Origin: a virus
Strand: one strand, 5' to 3'
Length of the DNA stretch: 48,839 bases
Virus record (IMG/VR): IMGVR_UViG_3300020122_000353
Location: 1 to 48,839 of that record
Made by a program: the position numbers and the translations under genes. Shown here piece after piece: positions 23,855 through 38,420 of this stretch (position 1 is the stretch's first letter; each line of letters opens with the position of its first letter). The notes beneath the pieces are model-generated. The model did not search any database, had not been told where the DNA came from, and worked only from the letters and a program-made list of their open reading frames with translations.

Positions 23855-25381
23855 ATGTCATTTCCTCCGGGGAGTTACCTGTTCCAGCTAAAGGACGACT
23901 CCAAGGAGCCTGCGGTTCCACGTGCACATCTTATGGCTGTACCTGACGACCAATTTGTGCAGGTTGGGCAAAACGTCGGAATTGCGCTCAAGGTAAAGGG
24001 CGTCACACAGTTCATCTGTGCTGACCTCGATCGCCCCAATGCGGAATTGGAAGCGAAGTTGACGGCTGAAGGAACGTGGTCGCAGGCGACGCCGCACGCG
24101 CGGCATTGGCTGTTCCTCCCGCCGCCGGGGTTCCGAGGCTCTAATAGCAAGCTGCCGATGGGCAGCGGGGACCTCAAGAGCGACGGCTATATCGTCGCTC
24201 CGGGTTCACATGTTGTCTGTGACGGCTCGCGCCACGCGGATGGGCGGGCGTGCGGAAAGACCGACTACGTCCATGACGGACCAGACGAACTCAAACCCGC
24301 GCCGCCGTGGCTGCTTGACCTATTTGTAAAGCATGACGCAAAAAATCCGGTCGAGGAAACCAGTGGGATCGCCAAGGGCAACCACGACAACTTTCTTTTC
24401 GGGGTTGCGCGCTACGTGCGCCAAGAGTGGGGCCTCTCTGAGGCAGCCGTGCAGAAAATGCTCGTAAAAGGCCCTAGAACGGTCTTAGAGGGCGAGAATC
24501 CCAACGACCCGTACACAGAGTCATCCATGCGGCGGATCGCGCACAGCGCGGCTTCCAAAGCTCCGTTAGAGCCGACGGTAAAACTTTCACCGGCCGGTGT
24601 AACCTCCGCTTTTGAAATACCAATGGTGGGGGAGCCCATCCGGTGGTGGGTTTTCGGCTTCGTCCCCCGTGGGCGTTATATCGGGCTCTACGGTCCAGGG
24701 GGTGCGGGTAAGACGACGTGGGGGGCTTGGCTAGCTGCCCAGGTGACACAGAAAGCTCCATTTCTTTACGTGGGGGTTGAAGAGGACGGAACAGAGTTTG
24801 TGCCAAAGGCACGGCTTGCCGGCGCGGTCGCAGCAAACCTTTACAGTCTCGACGATCCTATGACGTACACTTTCCCACGCGACGCAGGTCGCCTGGAGGA
24901 AATGATCGCAGCGATGGGCGTGGGGGTTGTGTATTTTGACAGCATCTACAACCATTTTAGCGCCGATGAAGGGTTGATGGTGTCCGAGCGTACGCGAAAG
25001 ATACTTAGCTCGCTTGACTTGGTCGCTAGGAAGACAAAGTGTACAATTATCGGCGTTTTTAATGTTAAACGGGATGGCACATTCAGTGGGTCCGAAGAGA
25101 TGCGGAGCGTTCCGCGTGTCCTTCTGCGGGCGCGGCGTTTGAAAGACCGTCCGCTTAGAATCCGCGTGGAAAAATCCAATCTCGATAACACAGGTACGGT
25201 TATGCAGTTTGGCGTGCGCTCCGTGCCGCTCGCGGACGTGGATACCGGCGAGGTCCAGCTCGTGGAGGACGCGGGGGGAGTTTTGCGTCCGTATGATATT
25301 AGAGTCGCCGAACGTATTGTCGATATTAGCGAAGAGGATGCGGATGTAGACGAATCAGTATTCCCTGAGACACACCCCTGA
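23855..25381 (+). CDS. PrimPol-ATPase fusion: primase-helicase
   Basis: 508 aa. Residues about 35-150 match the bifunctional primase-polymerase domain: QNVGIALKVKG, CADLDRP (D57, D59), TPHARHWLF and DGYIVAPGSHV. Residues about 265-470 are a RecA-like helicase ATPase of the RepA/AAA_25 type: Walker A GPGGAGKTTW (280-289) and Walker B VVYFDSIYNH (D362). It would prime and unwind at the phage fork. A stem spans its stop codon. Confidence 0.8.
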   Translation: MSFPPGSYLFQLKDDSKEPAVPRAHLMAVPDDQFVQVGQNVGIALKVKGVTQFICADLDRPNAELEAKLTAEGTWSQATPHARHWLFLPPPGFRGSNSKLPMGSGDLKSDGYIVAPGSHVVCDGSRHADGRACGKTDYVHDGPDELKPAPPWLLDLFVKHDAKNPVEETSGIAKGNHDNFLFGVARYVRQEWGLSEAAVQKMLVKGPRTVLEGENPNDPYTESSMRRIAHSAASKAPLEPTVKLSPAGVTSAFEIPMVGEPIRWWVFGFVPRGRYIGLYGPGGAGKTTWGAWLAAQVTQKAPFLYVGVEEDGTEFVPKARLAGAVAANLYSLDDPMTYTFPRDAGRLEEMIAAMGVGVVYFDSIYNHFSADEGLMVSERTRKILSSLDLVARKTKCTIIGVFNVKRDGTFSGSEEMRSVPRVLLRARRLKDRPLRIRVEKSNLDNTGTVMQFGVRSVPLADVDTGEVQLVEDAGGVLRPYDIRVAERIVDISEEDADVDESVFPETHP

Positions 25382-25463: not shown

Positions 25464-25865
25464 ATGAAACTTCAGGTTATGATTAGCGCCGTTGTCGATA
25501 AGGCTATAGCATCAGATAACCCGATCTGGGGCAAGCGGCTGGCCTCCATGTTGGAAAACCAAGCGAAGATATTACGGCTTCGTTACGGCGGAAGTACGAA
25601 GAAAGAACGCATCCCTCTTGGTCAGGGATACATACCCGCCACAGGACCGCTGCAGGTTAAACGTGCGCACGAGGGGGCCGCTAAAAACCCGCGCATAACG
25701 GCCGAAGAACTCGCGACGCTCGTTTGTGTCGATGTAACCACAGCCCGAAGAGCTGTGCGATGGGCTCAGGCTGTACGATACGTTAGCGACCCGACACGGG
25801 ACCGCGTCACGGGGCTCCTCAAGCAGGGGGCTCATACCAGTGAGATCGACGTATGGATGCGGTAA
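25464..25865 (+). CDS. Hypothetical protein with HTH-like C-terminus
   Basis: 133 aa from ATG 25464 (GAGG upstream). Basic and mostly helical. Residues about 75-105 (RITAEELATLVCVDVTTARR, then AVRWAQAV) look like a winged-HTH recognition region. Overlaps the helicase start by 13 nt. Possibly a DNA-binding replication accessory. Confidence 0.55.
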   Translation: MKLQVMISAVVDKAIASDNPIWGKRLASMLENQAKILRLRYGGSTKKERIPLGQGYIPATGPLQVKRAHEGAAKNPRITAEELATLVCVDVTTARRAVRWAQAVRYVSDPTRDRVTGLLKQGAHTSEIDVWMR

Positions 25866-27241
25866 CCCTACGATCGTGGCAGGCGCGTGAGGTCACAACG
25901 AACGCTCGCACGCTCCGCCGCGCGATGCTGTGTGATCCGCGCACCGGGAAGACGCTCGCCTGCATAGCATCGTATCTCCAAAGCGGATTTACGCGTGAGA
26001 ATACGATGGTTGTGTCCCCTGTGTCCTTTGCCGCGTCATGGGCCCAACAGTTAGAGGACGCCATACAAACGCCGGTGCTCCGGGGATACGAGCTTTCTAC
26101 GGCGGTGCTCTATAAGAAACTTCAAGCGGGTCGCGCGGTGGGAAAAAAATGTGTCTGTGTCCTAACGTACGGGCAGATTTGGCGAAGCACCCCGAAATGC
26201 CGATTCAAAGAAGAACTACGGAAATGGAAATGGACGGCTCTCATCCTTGATGAACTTCACCGGATCGCTTCTCCATCGTCACGCCAAGCACGGACCGCCC
26301 GGCTGTTAGCTTGGGATGCAACATGGGTGCGCGGCCTTACCGGCACGCCGGTACCCTCGCACTACGGCAACCTGTGGGGTCAAATGACCGCGATCGACAA
26401 AGAGAAGTGGGGGACGTCATTCGGCGAGTTCGCAAAGCGCGAACTTGTTATGGACTCGTTGTACCCTTCGCGTGTTGTCGGCGTACAAAACGAAGAGCGC
26501 CTTCTTCATATGGTTCGCGAAGATGCGTGTATTGTTACGCGTAAAGAAGTATTTGGAGCGGATAAGTGGGAGTACGTTGTTCGACATGTAGACCTGCCTA
26601 AGAAAGCGCGCGAGCTTTACAACAAGCTCGCAAAAGAATGGGTCGCTGAACAAGACGGCGCGGCCGTCGTAGCAGACCACGCCCTGACGCGCCTTGTTCG
26701 GTTTCAGCAGATAACGAGCGGCTTTGTCAGCTCTGAGGACGGCGTAGCGCGTAGTATCCATGAGCAAAAAATTGAGGCTGTGGTTGATGATCTATCGGAG
26801 ATTGCGGCACAGGGGGAAAAAGTCATTTTGTTCCATCGCTTTCGTTGGGAACATGCGGCATACCAGGCAGCATTGGGAAAGATTCGTGGTCTTAAAGTCT
26901 TTGCTATAGATGGGTCTACGAACGCATTGGAACGCATCCAGATCGCAGAAGGATTTAATAAACATAGAGGCCCGGCTGTTGTTGTTGCACAGATTCAGGC
27001 GGCGAGCGAGGCGTTATCGTTTGCGGAAGCCCAACATGCATTCTTTGTCAGTACAAATTTTAGCCTGAAGGATAATCTCCAAGCACGCGATCGTGTTTTC
27101 AAGCCGGGGGAACCCCGTGTCGTTACGCACTTCATTGTGCGGCATTCCGTAGATGAGTTCATCCATCGTAAAATTTCGGAAAAGGTGCCGCTGCACCAGG
27201 CCATAATGGGATGCGCGTTGAACGACGTTTTAGGAGTGTGA
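25853..27241 (+). CDS. SNF2-type DNA helicase/translocase
   Basis: 462 aa superfamily 2 enzyme. Motif I CDPRTGKT (27-34), motif II ILDELH (131-136), motif III LTGTPVPS, motif V/VI region QARDRVFKPGE. Two RecA lobes with no extra domains, compact like other phage SNF2-like helicases. Probably assists replication or recombination. Confidence 0.85.
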   Translation: MDAVTLRSWQAREVTTNARTLRRAMLCDPRTGKTLACIASYLQSGFTRENTMVVSPVSFAASWAQQLEDAIQTPVLRGYELSTAVLYKKLQAGRAVGKKCVCVLTYGQIWRSTPKCRFKEELRKWKWTALILDELHRIASPSSRQARTARLLAWDATWVRGLTGTPVPSHYGNLWGQMTAIDKEKWGTSFGEFAKRELVMDSLYPSRVVGVQNEERLLHMVREDACIVTRKEVFGADKWEYVVRHVDLPKKARELYNKLAKEWVAEQDGAAVVADHALTRLVRFQQITSGFVSSEDGVARSIHEQKIEAVVDDLSEIAAQGEKVILFHRFRWEHAAYQAALGKIRGLKVFAIDGSTNALERIQIAEGFNKHRGPAVVVAQIQAASEALSFAEAQHAFFVSTNFSLKDNLQARDRVFKPGEPRVVTHFIVRHSVDEFIHRKISEKVPLHQAIMGCALNDVLGV

Positions 27242-27243
27242 AC

Positions 27244-27462
27244 ATGAACGGTAAACGCATAAAAGAAATACTATCCACATTTTGGATTTGCGTTGTGGAC
27301 GAAAGCCTGCGGAAGTACATATTTGAACCTCCGGTAAAGGGCACGGGGTATATAACGGCGGTGTTTTGTCGAGCGGCGTCTCACCCAGCGGGCATGACTT
27401 GGTATTCTAACGGAATGGAACCCGATTACACATGCAAAGGGTGCGGGGATAACTGCGGGTGA
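27244..27462 (+). CDS. Small Cys-rich hypothetical protein
   Basis: 72 aa from ATG 27244 (TAGGAGTG upstream). C-terminal CKGCGDNCG suggests metal binding. Overlaps the start of the polymerase gene by 4 nt (GTGA). Confidence 0.55.
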   Translation: MNGKRIKEILSTFWICVVDESLRKYIFEPPVKGTGYITAVFCRAASHPAGMTWYSNGMEPDYTCKGCGDNCG

Positions 27463-29747
27463 TTTGCCCCGACTGTCGTGCGTGCCCATTGTGGGAGAAC
27501 GCGCAAAATGTGGGGATAGGCGGGCGCGGTGCTGTTCACCCGGAATTTTTGATCGTGGGGCAGAATCCAGGATCGCAGGAGGATTGGGAAGGCCGCGCGT
27601 TCATCGGACCGAGCGGAAAACTTCTCACCGCGATGCTCCGCGATGCGGGCTATGACCTCAAGAGCGTTCGTGTTACAAACGCAGTCCGCTGCCTGACGCC
27701 CAAAAACAGACCGCCGGAACCAAAGGAGATTGAAGCGTGCCGACAACACCTTATAGCGGAGATACAAGAATGCAAACCCTCTGTGATTATTGCATTAGGC
27801 GACATTGCATTGAGAGCATTGTGCCGGACTTCGGGTATGCGAGACAAACGGGGGAAAAACTTCCCGCTTCACGAGTCAATGCACTATACATGCAGCGTTT
27901 ATCCTATGTATCATCCTGCGTATATACTCAGGTATCCGCAAGCCCGTGCGACCGTTGTGGCAGACCTGCGGAAAGTGCGCGACCGAACTATTACCGAGGA
28001 GACGGTGCAGTGGGAATGGTACAAACCGGAAAGGACGGATAAGGTTTATGCCGTGGACATCGAGACGGACTTTGACTGGGAAACCAAGACGGGCGGAGAA
28101 AATATCGTTCAAGTGGCCGTCGCCTCTAGCACCGATGGGTGCCTTGTTTCGCGTGCTGAATGGCCAACCCTTATGGCTGAAGTATCAAAGGGGCAAGTTG
28201 TTGGTCATAACTCGTGGTGGTTTGATTGTCAGAAAGTTAGAGCCGCTGGTGTGCATATGCCTTGGGGACGAGATACACTGGTTCTAGCTTACCTTATGGA
28301 CGAAACACAACCGCTCGGGCTTGAGGCTTTGAGCGTAAAATACCTAGGTGTGAAAGGGTGGAAAGATGAAGGTCACAACAATGCGAAGGACCCTGTTAAG
28401 TTCGCTCTGTACAACGCACGGGATGCTTGTTACACACTTCGCCTGCATGACTACTTCCTTGCGAACCTTGGTGCCAATCGTGCGGGCGTCCCGCGCGTTA
28501 GAATATCGGATGAAATCCTACTACCGGCCAAACTAGCCCTAGACGAATGCACGCGGCGCGGCAACTTCGTGAACCTCGCGGCTGTGGAAGAGACCGAAGC
28601 CCGCTGCCTAGCCATCGCGGACGAAAAGGTGAAACAATTAAGGGAAATAGCTGACGACGGCGCGTATGCTGAAGCTAACCTATGGAATTTTGAAAAGACG
28701 CGCAATCTTAATCCTAATTCTCCACTTGAGGTGGGGCGTTGGATGGAGCTGCACGGGATGTTCTTGCCCCGCACGCAAACAGGCGTACCACAAACGGATA
28801 AGGCCGCGCTCTCGCTGTACCGGGGCAACCCGTTTGTAGATGCCCTGGAAGAGTACCGCGCGGCGGGTAAGCAGCTTTCAACGTACGTCAAGCCATACAA
28901 AGCGGCGGCGCAGAACGCGGACGGTAGGATTCATCCGGAATACACCATCGTCCGCACCGTCGTCGGGCGCACGAGTTGTAAGAGCCCAAACCTGCAAAAC
29001 CTGCCGCGCGAGCTAAAGAACTTCATCTCTGCGCCGCCGGGTAAGGTGCTGGTCTCAGCCGACTATAGCGCCCTGCACATTCGTCTGTTTGCGTGGGTGG
29101 CCCAAGAGCCGCGAATGTTGGCTGAGTACGCAAAGGACCCGCACTGGGACCCGCATTTGTTTTTCGCGAAGTCCTTTTACGCCAAGGACGAGATATCCAA
29201 GCAGGAGCGACAGATTGCTAAGTCGGCAAACTTTTCGCAGCTCTACCTGGGGACGGGAGAAACGCTCCAAGATTATGCCTCAAAGGTGGGCCTCAAACTT
29301 GATTTAGGTCTGTGTCACCAAACGCATTTGGGGTGGCACGGAGTGTTCATTGGAGCGAAGCCGTTTTACGGCCGCGTGGAGCGCGAACTGCGTGAGAAGG
29401 GATACGTGGAGACGGCGGTGGGGCGGCGCAGGCACTTCGGTGATGTCTCGTTGATGAACCGCCAATCGTTCAACGCGGCGCTTCGCGAAGCGGTGAATTT
29501 TCATGTGCTTGGGCTTGAGCCGGACATAGCTCTTCCAGGGCTCTCTGCATGTCACAAAGCGGGGCTGCCGGTGTGCGGCTTTATCCATGATAGCGTTTTG
29601 CTGGAGTTTGATTCGGAGAAGGAGTACCTAGAGAACAAGGGACTAATAGCCCAATGCATGTGCGAAGCGCCCGTGTTACTGTTAAAGGAGAGGTTTGGTG
29701 TGGATATGAATGTTCCTCTGGTCATAGAGTTTGAGGTGAAGAAGTGA
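27459..29747 (+). CDS. Family 4 UDG-like domain fused to family A DNA polymerase
   Basis: 762 aa, GTG start. Residues 1-170 resemble family 4 uracil-DNA glycosylases, as in phage SPO1 polymerase: CRACPLW, GQNPGSQED (34-42, with Q35 where family 4 has Glu), TNAVRC, NRPPEPKEIEAC and YHPAYILR; Cys pairs fit a 4Fe-4S site. Next is a DEDDy 3'-5' exonuclease (AVDIETD; GHNSWWFD; YNARDACYTL). The polymerase has DYSALHIRL (D535, H540 in place of Glu), R584/K588/F592/Y596, and GFIHDS (D711, S712 in place of Glu). Confidence 0.9.
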   Translation: MICPDCRACPLWENAQNVGIGGRGAVHPEFLIVGQNPGSQEDWEGRAFIGPSGKLLTAMLRDAGYDLKSVRVTNAVRCLTPKNRPPEPKEIEACRQHLIAEIQECKPSVIIALGDIALRALCRTSGMRDKRGKNFPLHESMHYTCSVYPMYHPAYILRYPQARATVVADLRKVRDRTITEETVQWEWYKPERTDKVYAVDIETDFDWETKTGGENIVQVAVASSTDGCLVSRAEWPTLMAEVSKGQVVGHNSWWFDCQKVRAAGVHMPWGRDTLVLAYLMDETQPLGLEALSVKYLGVKGWKDEGHNNAKDPVKFALYNARDACYTLRLHDYFLANLGANRAGVPRVRISDEILLPAKLALDECTRRGNFVNLAAVEETEARCLAIADEKVKQLREIADDGAYAEANLWNFEKTRNLNPNSPLEVGRWMELHGMFLPRTQTGVPQTDKAALSLYRGNPFVDALEEYRAAGKQLSTYVKPYKAAAQNADGRIHPEYTIVRTVVGRTSCKSPNLQNLPRELKNFISAPPGKVLVSADYSALHIRLFAWVAQEPRMLAEYAKDPHWDPHLFFAKSFYAKDEISKQERQIAKSANFSQLYLGTGETLQDYASKVGLKLDLGLCHQTHLGWHGVFIGAKPFYGRVERELREKGYVETAVGRRRHFGDVSLMNRQSFNAALREAVNFHVLGLEPDIALPGLSACHKAGLPVCGFIHDSVLLEFDSEKEYLENKGLIAQCMCEAPVLLLKERFGVDMNVPLVIEFEVKK

Positions 29748-29881
29748 TATATTCGGTTGGCGAGCGTGTCTGTGCTGTATGTCATCGCAAGTTTATGGAT
29801 CGTAACGACCCAAATGAAAATATTTTTAGAGCGAGAATTTGTTCTGTTTGTTTGGACAAGAAGACGCCTGGTGGGCCGTGA
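29744..29881 (+). CDS. 45-aa zinc-ribbon protein
   Basis: GTG start overlapping the polymerase stop (GTGA); TGA overlaps the next GTG. Two CxxC pairs, CAVC and CSVC, about 20 residues apart make a likely zinc ribbon. Probably a nucleic-acid-binding accessory of the replication module. Confidence 0.6.
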   Translation: MIYSVGERVCAVCHRKFMDRNDPNENIFRARICSVCLDKKTPGGP

Positions 29882-30792
29882 AATTCACACCACGTAAGCC
29901 GCTCATTCTGTCGTCAAGCGCGCTCAGTGCGTTCAAACGATGCCCTAAGTCGTTTGAGCTTCAATACGTTCGGGGCTTTCAAACCGAAACGAATCGTGCG
30001 GTTGAAGAGGGCGCATCCTTCCACGAGATCATAGCGAAGGCCGCATTAGGTGTACCACAGGAAAAACTCATTGCGGATTACGTGGGACAGCCTATGCTCC
30101 CCGTTGCCCTAGGGTACCTAAAACATAAAGGTATTAGGGGCGTTACTTTAGCAGTAGAACAGCCCCTTTATACAAAAATTCTTCCGAGCGTCTGGATTCG
30201 CACGACGTTCGACCGTGTGTATAATTTGCTGCCCGACAGCTCGCCTACGATCCTGGACTACAAGACGTTCTCCAACGCGCCGAACTTGGACGTGGAATTG
30301 AACTTTCAATGCAAGCTCTACTGTGTGCTCACAATGGAACATTTCGGCCTTGAAAACCCGCCGCGTTTTGAGTTTGAGTACGTACGCCGCACCCCGCCGT
30401 TCATCGAGAAGGACAAAAAGGGCGGTGTGTGGACGCCGGATGACTGCTACAAGACATGGCCTATTTACATATCCTCGCGCGAGGCGGCGGTCCTCAAGGC
30501 AGAGTTGTTGGCCGACTGCGAACGCATACTTCATACCTTGAAGACATGGGAGCCGGGAGACCCAAGGTTTTCCCGCACGGCGCTTACAACAAGCGGCTGG
30601 TCGGCGTTCTCCTGTGGTACATGTTTCGTACGAGAACTTTGCAAAGCCGAGGCGTCTACGGGCAGGTTGTCGGCGGCACAGATTGAAGCAAACACCACGG
30701 GCATAGGGGTTTTCCCGCCGCCGCTCCCTAAAGGGGCAAATGGAAAAACGTCGTACCTAGCAACAGTTGAAGAAAGCGAGAGTTTGAGATGA
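29878..30792 (+). CDS. PD-(D/E)XK exonuclease, RecB/Cas4-like
   Basis: 304 aa with GTG start at 29878. LSSSALSAFKRCPKSFELQY at the N-terminus, EGASFHEIIA, the nuclease core ILDYKTF and later QCKLYCVLT, and C-terminal Cys (CGTCFVRELC) match PDDEXK_1 nucleases with a possible Fe-S cluster. In recombination modules it resects ends for the recombinase. Followed by Sak4-like ATPase and SSB genes. Confidence 0.8.
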   Translation: MKFTPRKPLILSSSALSAFKRCPKSFELQYVRGFQTETNRAVEEGASFHEIIAKAALGVPQEKLIADYVGQPMLPVALGYLKHKGIRGVTLAVEQPLYTKILPSVWIRTTFDRVYNLLPDSSPTILDYKTFSNAPNLDVELNFQCKLYCVLTMEHFGLENPPRFEFEYVRRTPPFIEKDKKGGVWTPDDCYKTWPIYISSREAAVLKAELLADCERILHTLKTWEPGDPRFSRTALTTSGWSAFSCGTCFVRELCKAEASTGRLSAAQIEANTTGIGVFPPPLPKGANGKTSYLATVEESESLR

Positions 30793-30959
30793 CGATTTCC
30801 GAGTTGGAGGCGCAGTTGCTAGAATTGCGAAAATACGTAGGTGATGCAATCGTGAAGCAATGCGTAGTTGTGGACGGCGTGCAACATTGCGCCCTAGCAC
30901 GAGTCGCCATGGCCAGTTACAATGTAGACGGAAGTGTTGCGGGAGTAATGCTTCAATGA
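30789..30959 (+). CDS. 56-aa small protein
   Basis: ATG overlaps the nuclease stop and TGA overlaps the start of the ATPase (ATGA at both ends). N-terminal helix (ISELEAQLLELRKYVGDAIV), then a beta-like part with two Cys. No family recognised; the overlaps support expression and fix the ATPase start at 30956. Confidence 0.55.
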   Translation: MTISELEAQLLELRKYVGDAIVKQCVVVDGVQHCALARVAMASYNVDGSVAGVMLQ

Positions 30960-31780
30960 TTTATCACTTAGACTGTGATCTTAAGGGACTCCCGTACCAA
31001 TACCGGGACATCGCGTCAGAGGGCACGCGACTCAAAACATTTAAGCTCGCTACGTACCAAGAGTACGAAGCGTGTTGCGACACCCTTGCCGAGCAGGTGA
31101 CCCCCAATGATTTCGTCGTTGTGGATACGCTATCGCAGCTCGTTGAGGCAACGCTTGAGTACCTGCGTGAGCGTGCTATGGCGGCTAATGGCATCGTGCG
31201 TGCCTCGGACGCTATAGAGCTGTTTGAAAAGGTATCAGCGTTTGGGCGTGATTATAAGGATTCCAAGGGACTCATAATGCAGAAGATCAAGAACCTCTCG
31301 GCGCGGGGGGCTCGCATTCTTCTTAACGTCCACCAGAAGTCCGCGTACATGGATTCTGATCGCGCGGCCATTGTATCCACCTTTAAGGGCATTCCTATGG
31401 ACGCCGTGAAGATGATAACACCAAGTCTGAACAACCAGCTTTTTGAGATCGTCAACGCCCGCGCGACAGATATCTACCGCCTCTCGCGCTATAACGAAGA
31501 CGTTATAGATGAAGCGGGTAACATGACGATCCCGTACGGCACGCGGCTTCTGCATTTGTCCGAGAATCCCAACGACGTTATAAAGTCCAGCGCACCGCCG
31601 GATAAAATTGCGTCTTTGCGGGCCGGGATGTTAAACCCCACATTACCGAAACTTTACGCCCTTATCGGCGGAAAGCCGGAGATGATGGTCGTATATAGTC
31701 CACCTGGAGTCGGAAAAACAACGTTTGCCCTTAGTTCGCTGAAACTCGCTGCGAAAACGGAGAACTCTGATGAAGTATAA
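30956..31780 (+). CDS. Circularly permuted Sak4-like RecA-fold ATPase
   Basis: 274 aa from ATG 30956. It has the parts of a Sak4/AAA_24 recombinase in the wrong order. The protein begins with the strand that normally follows Walker A (MIYHLDCDLKGLPYQYRD), then Walker B FVVVDT (D57) and sensor LLNVHQKS (122-129). Walker A (PPGVGKTTF, 249-257) lies at the C-terminus, followed only by ALSSLKLAAKTENSDEV. C- and N-termini abut in the normal fold (SDEV + MIYHLD). Neighbouring nuclease and SSB genes support an annealing/strand-exchange role. Confidence 0.8.
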   Translation: MIYHLDCDLKGLPYQYRDIASEGTRLKTFKLATYQEYEACCDTLAEQVTPNDFVVVDTLSQLVEATLEYLRERAMAANGIVRASDAIELFEKVSAFGRDYKDSKGLIMQKIKNLSARGARILLNVHQKSAYMDSDRAAIVSTFKGIPMDAVKMITPSLNNQLFEIVNARATDIYRLSRYNEDVIDEAGNMTIPYGTRLLHLSENPNDVIKSSAPPDKIASLRAGMLNPTLPKLYALIGGKPEMMVVYSPPGVGKTTFALSSLKLAAKTENSDEV

Positions 31781-31886
31781 GCTAACAGGGGAATTTAAGA
31801 TAAATGCGTTTGGGATTAATGACGTGTCAGATGAAGCGCTCTTCGCGGAATTAGCGCACCGTATGTCTAAGGGAGAAAAACAATGA
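31770..31886 (+). CDS. 38-aa small protein
   Basis: ATG lies inside the end of the ATPase gene (overlap 11 nt) and TGA overlaps the next ATG. MKYKLTGEFKINAFGINDVS then an acidic helix. Likely a coupled mini-gene; no family recognised. Confidence 0.45.
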   Translation: MKYKLTGEFKINAFGINDVSDEALFAELAHRMSKGEKQ

Positions 31887-32443
31887 GTAGTTATGTAGAC
31901 GAGCACGGGAATATCAAGGTTGATGAAATCTCATCCGGCTTCGAGCGCGTTCCGCTTGGCGTGTACAACGCCGTGTTGGCGGCCGTCGCTATGCAGGAGC
32001 CGAAAGCCCCCGGTAAGGGTGAAACGCTGGTTGTTACATGGCGTATCCTTGAAGGCCCCCACGCCGGAGAATCACTGTACGTATACTATGACTTCACCGT
32101 GTACGAACAAGAGGGCAAGAAGCCGTTGATACGTGGAGTCGGCGACCTTCTCAAGGACTTCGCCGCCGCTGGGGTTCCCTTCGACCCCAAAAAAGAAGTG
32201 CTCTCCCAGAGCTGCACGAAGAACGCTAAGTTATTCACCACAAAGCTCAAGAATGTGCCGGTCCGTCTGAACATCTCTGAGCGGGCTGGGAAAGACAAAG
32301 TTACAGGGCAGCAAAAGTTGTACCGCAACACGCGTATCTTGGAAGCCCTGCCCAAGAAATCTCCGGCCGCATCGACACCCGTAGCGGCAGCGGTTGTCTC
32401 CGAGTCAACAGGCTCGGAAGATAGCGCAGACTACCTTGATTAG
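31883..32443 (+). CDS. Single-stranded DNA-binding protein, DUF669-like
   Basis: 186 aa. The OB-like core (LGVYNAVLAAVAMQEPKAPG, LVVTWRILEGPHAGESLYVY, VPVRLNISERAG) followed by a disordered Ala/Ser/Pro linker and an acidic tail (SEDSADYLD) fits phage DUF669 ssDNA-binding proteins. Next to the Sak4-like ATPase, as in other recombination modules. Confidence 0.75.
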   Translation: MSSYVDEHGNIKVDEISSGFERVPLGVYNAVLAAVAMQEPKAPGKGETLVVTWRILEGPHAGESLYVYYDFTVYEQEGKKPLIRGVGDLLKDFAAAGVPFDPKKEVLSQSCTKNAKLFTTKLKNVPVRLNISERAGKDKVTGQQKLYRNTRILEALPKKSPAASTPVAAAVVSESTGSEDSADYLD

Positions 32444-32618
32444 GTTTGTGTCGCAAAAAAGACTAAACACATGTGCGGCGTTGGCGGAGTTTGAAGCGGC
32501 TGTTTTTAGGCTCCTAGCGTCGTTACCCCCAGAGCTACTGGAGACAAAAGAAGTTAGAGACGCGGGCAGTGCGCATGATAGACTTCTTTTGACGGCCGCC
32601 GCTGAGGTGGTAGTATGA
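32436..32618 (+). CDS. Small hypothetical protein
   Basis: 60 aa with TTG start overlapping the SSB stop (GTG at 32448 is an alternative); the ATG at 32394 lies inside the SSB gene. Helical (CAALAEFEAAVFRLLASL). Coupled to the nuclease start (ATGA). Confidence 0.45.
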   Translation: MIRFVSQKRLNTCAALAEFEAAVFRLLASLPPELLETKEVRDAGSAHDRLLLTAAAEVVV

Positions 32619-32977
32619 ATGAGAAAGCGTTTGTCGCTAAGGCGAAAAAACGCTTAGAGGCAGAGGTTGGTGGTCTCTGGATCACCTTCCCCCGCACGCG
32701 GTTTGCGCGGTCCGGAGTGAGCGACTTACTTGGTTGTGTAAACGGACGATTCGTGGCGCTGGAATTTAAGAAGCCGGATCACAGCAACCACTACGGCGTA
32801 ACTCCCACGCAAGAAAAATTCTTAATTGCCGCTACCGAGAACGGCGGCCTCGCGCTTACCGTTTGTTGCGAAGATGATTTGGAAAATGTCGTATGGGCCC
32901 TTACTGTCGGGTCTCATACTCAATATCACGGCGCCGCTTCTGCGACGTCGGCATCTCGAAGTGTGACCCAAAAATAA
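32615..32977 (+). CDS. VRR-NUC nuclease (Holliday-junction resolvase-like)
   Basis: 120 aa. Core signature GVSDLLGCVNGRFVALEFKK with D, E and K in PD-(D/E)XK order, then TPTQEKFLIA, matches VRR-NUC. Likely resolves branched DNA before packaging. Its 3' end overlaps the convergent gene by 77 nt and no terminator is visible. Confidence 0.8.
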   Translation: MNEKAFVAKAKKRLEAEVGGLWITFPRTRFARSGVSDLLGCVNGRFVALEFKKPDHSNHYGVTPTQEKFLIAATENGGLALTVCCEDDLENVVWALTVGSHTQYHGAASATSASRSVTQK

Positions 32978-37091: not shown

Positions 37092-38420
37092 CTAGCGTAT
37101 TCCGGGGTGAAGTTCAAATCCAAACTCTAGGACTTTCTTCCCATCCTCTACGATACGATCATAGCCGTCCGTTCGAAATCCCAACCCGGCCACATCGTCA
37201 CGCAGCGCATACGCCGCATCCAAGGCCTCCTCCGAGGCTTTCGCGAGGCTTTCAGACTGTCCGTAGGCTACACCGAGCGATCCCGTAGGAGAGGCGCTTT
37301 CTAATTCTTCCTCGCCCCGGCACATATTAGTACCGATGAAGCCGCCGGACCACAGGGATTCCACCTCCGGGAACGTCTTGCCGCGCGCCGAGTCCTTGTG
37401 GCCGCTGCCAATGTTGTCGTTCGGGAAAGGGTTTACGTATAGGTGCACAGCATACCCGAGGTCAGTGCTGGGGGCAGCCGGTTCCCCGCCGGTTGCTATG
37501 TCCCACAGGTGACGCCCAAGGTCGGGCAGGAGACGCATAGAAGCCATCTCGGAGTAGTACCCCAGGCGCGGCGTCCACTCGAGGAAGTACGCACGCCCGT
37601 TCGGGGACGCAATCACGTTCACGTCGTAGAGACCAGGCGGGGCCTGGTGACGGCGAAACCCTAGCGCAAGGTGTTCCCAGCGCAGGGCCTCGGCTATCTT
37701 CGGGCGGTCTTCTTGGTAGAACCAAACGGCGTTAAATGCGCAACCTGTCGCTGATCCTAAGTCATTATTCAGGAGCGCCTTATGTTCAATTGTACCCTCG
37801 TACGGGCCAACCCACCGTTGCCCATTCCACCAACGGGCTGTACTAAGGGCAACTCCCTCCATCTTTTCCTGAACGACCCATTGTCCCGCTCCGCCAATCC
37901 GCTTCTTCAGGGCCGCTGCACGCTTGGCTAGGTGTTCCCCGGATACAGCTTTAGATGTCGCGTCCTTATCCACATCTGGACTGTCGGGCTTTAAGTACGT
38001 TTCAACCGGCCCCAACGACGGCGCCCACGCGATCACTTCGTCCAGGGAAGAAAACTCCTGGTACGGCGGGGAATCCATCCCAAATTCATCCGCGAAGTCT
38101 TGTCCAAACGAGCGGTCTCCTTCAAGCTTGTCCATGAACGAGCCGCCGCCGATGGTGGGCAGACCCCAACGACGCGCTTGGTCGGCGAGTTCTCCCATGC
38201 CGGTGAAATCAAAAACCGCGAGCGTGGGTTCCCCAGCCGTAGCGCTGGCTTTCGCCTCCGCTAAAAGTTCCGGCCATGACCCTATCTTTGGGACCAAGCC
38301 GTTTCCGACGCGCTTATGTGGCGTCTCTTTGATGTACATACGTACGGTATGGCCTTCGTCCTGGAGGCGCAACGCCCACGAGAGCGATTCCCCCCACCGC
38401 GAGGCGTACGCGACGAACAC
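37092..38420 (-). CDS. ATP-grasp enzyme, PurD-like
   Basis: 442 aa, GTG start 1 nt after the upstream stop. An N-terminal Rossmann-like domain (MFVAYASRWGESLSWALRLQ), the segment GGGSFMDKLEGDRSFGQDFA resembling the PurD LEGSKaFaK motif, the lysine-bearing VETYLKPDSPD, the acidic strand GQWVVQEKMEGVALS, IEHKALLNNDLGSATGC and metal-site-like YFLEWTPRLGYYSEM fit a phosphoribosylamine-glycine ligase-like ATP-grasp. Substrate unknown. It lies between two ejection-protein genes, not in a nucleotide cluster, so purine synthesis is doubtful; a peptide/amide ligase is possible. Confidence 0.7.
   Translation of the reverse strand: MFVAYASRWGESLSWALRLQDEGHTVRMYIKETPHKRVGNGLVPKIGSWPELLAEAKASATAGEPTLAVFDFTGMGELADQARRWGLPTIGGGSFMDKLEGDRSFGQDFADEFGMDSPPYQEFSSLDEVIAWAPSLGPVETYLKPDSPDVDKDATSKAVSGEHLAKRAAALKKRIGGAGQWVVQEKMEGVALSTARWWNGQRWVGPYEGTIEHKALLNNDLGSATGCAFNAVWFYQEDRPKIAEALRWEHLALGFRRHQAPPGLYDVNVIASPNGRAYFLEWTPRLGYYSEMASMRLLPDLGRHLWDIATGGEPAAPSTDLGYAVHLYVNPFPNDNIGSGHKDSARGKTFPEVESLWSGGFIGTNMCRGEEELESASPTGSLGVAYGQSESLAKASEEALDAAYALRDDVAGLGFRTDGYDRIVEDGKKVLEFGFELHPGIR

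Follow-up and report, generated by a model that had tools for sequence, protein, structure and literature searches.

A circularly permuted Sak4-like ATPase in a conserved operon of a phage lineage

Sak4 (phrog_124, AAA_24), described in phage HK620 and in Staphylococcus phage 52A (structure 8RC5), is built on a RecA core that lacks the C-terminal domain of RecA itself, with Walker A and Walker B motifs, a sensor residue and the lysine of a KxR motif, and its gene lies beside those of an exonuclease and an SSB with an acidic tail. The HK620 protein binds ssDNA and carries out ATP-dependent annealing, which is stimulated by its SSB through the last six SSB residues (PMC5928155). The ATP-gamma-S of 8RC5 sits at the interface of two successive protomers, with Lys41, Thr42 and Tyr216 on one side and Lys229, Arg231 and His232 on the other (PMC11846896). 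Sak and Sak4 are reported to be needed for staphylococcal phage replication (PMC5499656). The same core fold is found in the RAD51 paralogues, RAD51, RadA and RecA, which follow the canonical order, carry extra N- or C-terminal domains and are unpermuted. Few biological machines are as highly conserved as the RecA-family recombinases, and the position of their P-loop near the start of the chain is regarded as fixed.

Natural circular permutation is known from other proteins. RsgA (YjeQ) and RbgA (YlqF) are naturally permuted P-loop NTPases with the P-loop late in the domain (PMC6912228); however, they are TRAFAC GTPases of ribosome assembly, and their NKxD (G4) motif is absent from the protein described here. 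Circularly permuted phage DNA methylases (PMC7824862) likewise represent the natural permutation of a phage DNA enzyme, but they are methyltransferases and not P-loop ATPases. The term "circularly permuted" in PMC10853773 also refers to methylases. No description bringing together Sak4 and circular permutation was found in the open-access papers searched, and a broader search of these papers found no circular permutation of RecA-type recombinases.

The protein analysed here shares with Sak4 the RecA core, both Walker motifs, the sensor, the KxR lysine and the gene setting. It differs in that its chain is rotated by one beta–alpha unit, which leaves Walker A C-terminal, in that the segment before beta1 is gone, and in that the KxR arginine is mostly lost. 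Since the profile, motifs, fold and setting are those of Sak4 while the canonical order of Walker A before Walker B is not found, it is regarded as a permuted variant derived from Sak4.

Chain order of the permuted gene

The stretch of DNA analysed (the window) comprises 48,839 nucleotides, positions 1 to 48,839 of IMG/VR record IMGVR_UViG_3300020122_000353. The gene for the circularly permuted Sak4-like ATPase occupies positions 30956–31780 of the plus strand, on which all of its elements lie, and encodes 274 aa followed by a stop codon. The ORF coordinates bear out the gene ends given in a preliminary description, a start within an ATGA overlap at 30956 and a stop within a coupled mini-gene: the gene begins in the overlap with a 56-aa ORF (30789–30959, plus strand), which encodes no P-loop, and its TAA (31778–31780) lies inside a 38-aa ORF (31770–31886, plus strand). 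The frame is open throughout.

The N-terminus of the protein reads MIYHLDCDLKG and aligns with canonical PLLHLDIREKG. Its strand IYHLD (residues 2–6; 30959–30973), modelled as strand E2–6, corresponds to beta2, which comes after alpha1 in canonical Sak4 and is the first element here. Walker B (VVVDT, with D57) follows, its strand FVVVD spanning residues 53–57 (31112–31126; strand E53–57 in the model), and then H126–Q127, the sensor residue H126 being encoded at 31331–31333. Residues 200–239 make up the old C-terminal part, with the KxR loop and the last helix ([ND]PTLPKL). Within it, K210 (31583–31585) aligns with the lysine of the canonical KxR motif and is lysine in all six permuted proteins and in 75% of canonical ones, while the segment NPTLPKL (residues 227–233; 31634–31654), comparable to canonical C-termini such as NPDYNVL and DPTYDKL, is also kept in all six. 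The joint of the old C-terminus to the old N-terminus falls at about residues 238–242 (31667–31681). Beyond it stand the relocated beta1, P-loop and alpha1 (residues 243–273; 31682–31774), modelled as strand E243–248 and helices 254–258 and 260–273, with Walker A (SPPGVGKTT) at residues 248–256 (31697–31723); the C-terminal end reads VVYSPPGVGKTTFALSSLKLAAK...SDEV.

This is the order of elements given in the preliminary description, from MIYHLDCDLKG through D57, HQ and Walker A to SDEV. The linker, by contrast, had been placed at residues 200–235, whereas the rotation optimum sets the joint near residue 240. A split gene with its N-terminus encoded upstream was rejected: the open frame upstream of the gene, followed back to 30860, contains no P-loop, and in a related contig (L146) a stop codon immediately precedes the start codon, so that a P-loop cannot precede the gene there.

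Profile searches, relatives and structural model

The unrotated protein matches Pfam AAA_24 above the cut-off, with residues 33–154 aligned to profile positions 47–146 and the P-loop left at the C-terminus. After rotation there is a single AAA_24 match (profile 3–142; 42.2 bits versus 38.1 unrotated) and a single phrog_124 match over 42–227. The E-value for phrog_124 is 3.9e-8 for the window protein and 2e-14 to 1e-17 for the other five permuted proteins. An HMM built from 138 canonical Sak4 proteins, and from no permuted ones, aligns with each permuted protein in two separate pieces whose order is swapped. When the best single-domain score was taken at every fourth rotation, the window protein had its optimum at residue 240, rising from 34.1 to 56.5 bits (HMM 60–293), and the other five had theirs at the homologous cut (rotations 220–232); six canonical controls scored best at or close to zero rotation. 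Rotation, suggested as a check in the preliminary description, thus fuses the two swapped pieces into one match. The alignment of rotated with canonical Sak4 proteins gave no usable conserved stretch.

These searches bear on the possibility of a chimera, in which a truncated Sak4 without its own P-loop would later have been given the P-loop segment of another ATPase, such as the primase–helicase of the same operon. The C-terminal segment does match AAA_25 and DnaB-like profiles weakly too. However, it scores best with canonical Sak4 P-loops (at most 37 bits, against 19 bits for the window primase–helicase, a margin inflated by the fact that the top Sak4 proteins had been fetched by their P-loop motif), and in each of the six proteins the canonical HMM runs on over the joint virtually without gap or overlap, which makes a chimeric origin improbable.

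The same permuted protein is encoded in five further IMG/VR contigs (L064, L146, L147, L148 and L157), where it is 26–32% identical to the window protein, collinear with it and equipped with Walker A near the stop codon. L064 was found through a DNA polymerase alignment (polymerases 41% identical), and the gene in its Sak4 slot matches the window protein end to end without rotation (E 3e-31). A DNA pattern covering the joint and P-loop retrieved L064 a second time together with L146, L147 and L148; these four IMG/VR contigs are all permuted. L157 was recovered by a final profile scan. All six members are metagenomic contigs, and their number is at least six, as the joint pattern has fixed spacing and near records may be missed. 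Single-protein scans of IMG/VR with Sak4, polymerase and nuclease gave no matches; tblastn with the permuted proteins, unrotated, found none in 50,697 phage records either, and no relative among cultured phages came to light. Applied to 84,980 bacterial and archaeal genomes, the joint pattern returned unrelated proteins only. All 54 contigs with the motif YxPPGVGKTTFA encode canonical proteins. Separately, a canonical Sak4 in L134 (5327–6245) apparently occupies two overlapping frames, one of 88 aa that includes the P-loop and one of 265 aa for the remainder, through a frameshift, a sequencing error or true gene splitting.

The preliminary description had proposed structure prediction and had named a Walker A lying outside the fold as evidence against permutation. 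The AlphaFold2 model obtained is confident and has the P-loop strand within the fold: residues 243–248 form a strand by DSSP, and block mean pLDDT is 90–98 over residues 241–270. The whole 274-aa model, a RecA-core fold without extra domains, has a mean pLDDT of 91.2 and a pTM of 0.88, figures that rest on an alignment whose canonical rows were entered as two parts, which was counted against the best explanation given below. This alignment comprised the six permuted and 51 canonical proteins, the latter split into separate back and front parts, with the P-loop aligned in all 51 canonical rows; with the single sequence, pLDDT was 36.

The best solved match by VIA-align was 8RC5, the phage 52A Sak4 (Z 14.7, rmsd 2.2 over 165 residues), followed by RAD51-type proteins (Z 9–10); over the RAD51 paralogues, RAD51, RadA and RecA, Z is about 8.5–9.9. 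Model residues 1–239 pair with 8RC5 chain residues 50–257. The unmatched ends, model residues 240–274 and 8RC5 before residue 50, should be the same beta1–P-loop–alpha1 unit at opposite ends of the chain, and the DSSP strand and local confidence suggest that this unit would superpose in space on the canonical one. The Foldseek TM values against 8RC5 (0.49/0.60) are as expected for a sequential alignment of a permuted chain.

Operon setting and origin

The conserved operon order is helicases, UDG–PolA, PD-(D/E)XK nuclease, permuted Sak4, SSB and VRR-type nuclease. In the window, all of these genes lie on the plus strand. The primase–helicase, with its own AAA_25 domain (23855–25381), and the SNF2-type helicase (25853–27241) are followed by a UDG-family domain fused to a family A DNA polymerase (27459–29747). 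The UDG-family domain is N-terminal (PF03167, E 2e-29), and the alignment with related phage polymerases spans it too. A PD-(D/E)XK (Cas4/RecB-like) exonuclease (29881–30792) stands immediately upstream, followed by the 56-aa ORF. Downstream, the 38-aa ORF leads into the gene of an SSB-like protein (DUF669; 31883–32443) with the acidic tail EDSADYLD, a candidate for the cognate SSB, and then comes an endonuclease-like protein (32615–32977; phrog_93), read here as VRR-type and conserved across the group.

In four of the five other genomes the polymerase is 41–47% identical to that of the window; no UDG–polymerase was seen in the stretch of G002 (L164, 13–2488), where, unlike in the other genomes, the nuclease gene comes next after that of the SNF2 helicase and no polymerase gene intervenes. 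The nuclease was recognised in all five, the SSB-like gene directly follows the Sak4 gene in all five, and the primase–helicase, SNF2 helicase, SSB-like and VRR-type genes keep the same order wherever the stretch examined covers them. In L164, L165 and L167 the permuted gene escaped a greedy gene caller, and its place there is known from other searches. The SSB-like neighbours of the permuted Sak4 genes have acidic C-terminal tails. Outside the operon, in the structural gene block, the window encodes an ATP-grasp-like protein (37092–38420, minus strand; weak PF01071 match below the cut-off); similar N-termini in the matching block of L163, L164, L165, L166 and L167 make it look conserved group-wide.

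Canonical Sak4 genes are present in about 70 related IMG/VR contigs gathered by a polymerase scan, and the exonuclease holds the same place in canonical-Sak4 phages. In phages ctfzr933, PMBT14, Opt-155 and Lebethron, the polymerase, the Cas4-like nuclease and a canonical Sak4 come in this order, and the SSB position after them is taken by a hypothetical gene. Given the matching nuclease neighbour and operon slot, the permuted protein occupies the place of canonical Sak4. A second complete Sak4, which according to the preliminary description would have spoken against its claim, was searched for and not found in any of the six permuted records. RecT and ERF are absent from these records, and RecA matches in them are below the cut-off only, those of the window falling in the primase–helicase.

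The permuted genomes form one clade in the polymerase tree (five rows, SH-aLRT 100). A tree built from rotated permuted proteins and canonical Sak4 likewise unites the permuted ones in a single clade (six rows, 100/100, stem 1.95), whose exact neighbour is uncertain owing to long branches. Since the entire RecA superfamily has the canonical order, the permuted order is derived; this evidence points to a single gain within the phage lineage studied. The simplest route, and a plausible origin, would be a tandem duplication in frame, after which the front of the first copy and the back of the second were lost; truncation of both copies would give exactly such a nearly linker-free joint. No DNA-level trace of duplication was found around the permuted gene, where repeats of 14–18 nt look like chance, and no tandem-duplication intermediate was found.

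Active site, expected function and meaning

At about 30% identity, the six permuted proteins all retain the GKT of Walker A, D57, H126 and K210. D57 is also invariant in the 51 canonical proteins, and the sensor position, histidine in every permuted protein, is histidine or glutamine in 92% of canonical ones. Its position makes K210 the expected counterpart of Lys229 in 8RC5, a residue that extends to the ATP of the neighbouring protomer. The KxR arginine, present in 98% of canonical Sak4 proteins, is kept in two of the six. Residue 212, at this position, is R, H or S in the permuted clade (two each). Walker A opens with S or A in three of the six, and with S in the window protein. Judging by these residues, the use of ATP may be altered.

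Loss of the trans arginine in four of the six and the serine at the start of the window Walker A would suit a folded protein devoid of ATPase and annealase activity, a structural or regulatory derivative. Against this stand the four conserved features at such low identity, the retention of the operon partners and the fact that the permuted protein is the only recombinase found in the six records, and such an inactive derivative is very unlikely. An assembly error, inversion or decaying gene, conceivable for a metagenomic contig, is in effect refuted by the same order in five other contigs of diverged sequence and by the open frame.

The best explanation, with a probability of about 0.86, is a naturally permuted Sak4 whose RecA core has its new chain ends between alpha1 and beta2, with next to no linker separating the old C-terminal helix from beta1, and which is predicted to work as an ATP-dependent ssDNA-annealing recombinase in a clade of single origin. 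The permutation itself, as claimed in the preliminary description, is supported by the rotation test with its controls, the five orthologues, the operon slot and the confident model. As to activity, the conserved GKT, D57, H126 and K210, together with the acidic SSB tails, lead us to expect the same job as that of canonical Sak4. ATP would be bound where the C-terminal P-loop of one protomer meets K210 of its neighbour, and the protein would assemble on ssDNA as canonical Sak4 does. The neighbouring acidic-tailed SSB would recruit it, a proposal that fits the SSB dependence of HK620 Sak4 (PMC5928155), and it would anneal the ssDNA made by the adjacent exonuclease.

A more far-reaching proposal is that the protein represents the first described case of natural circular permutation within the RecA/Rad51 superfamily and that protomer joining is altered as well, with the segment before beta1 replaced by the joint and the trans arginine mostly lost. 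This could lead to a different assembly or ATP turnover, for example a ring or short oligomer mainly binding ATP; taken as a whole, this proposal is tentative and rather doubtful.

A RecA-type core with its ends moved in a conserved, lineage-wide manner is surprising. Such a conserved rotated member is a natural test of the chain connections needed by the recombinase fold and filament. Ordinary profile annotation splits or under-scores proteins of this kind, and more of them may hide in viral data. With its predicted activity, the permuted Sak4 would provide recombineering with a compact annealase whose ends can be moved.
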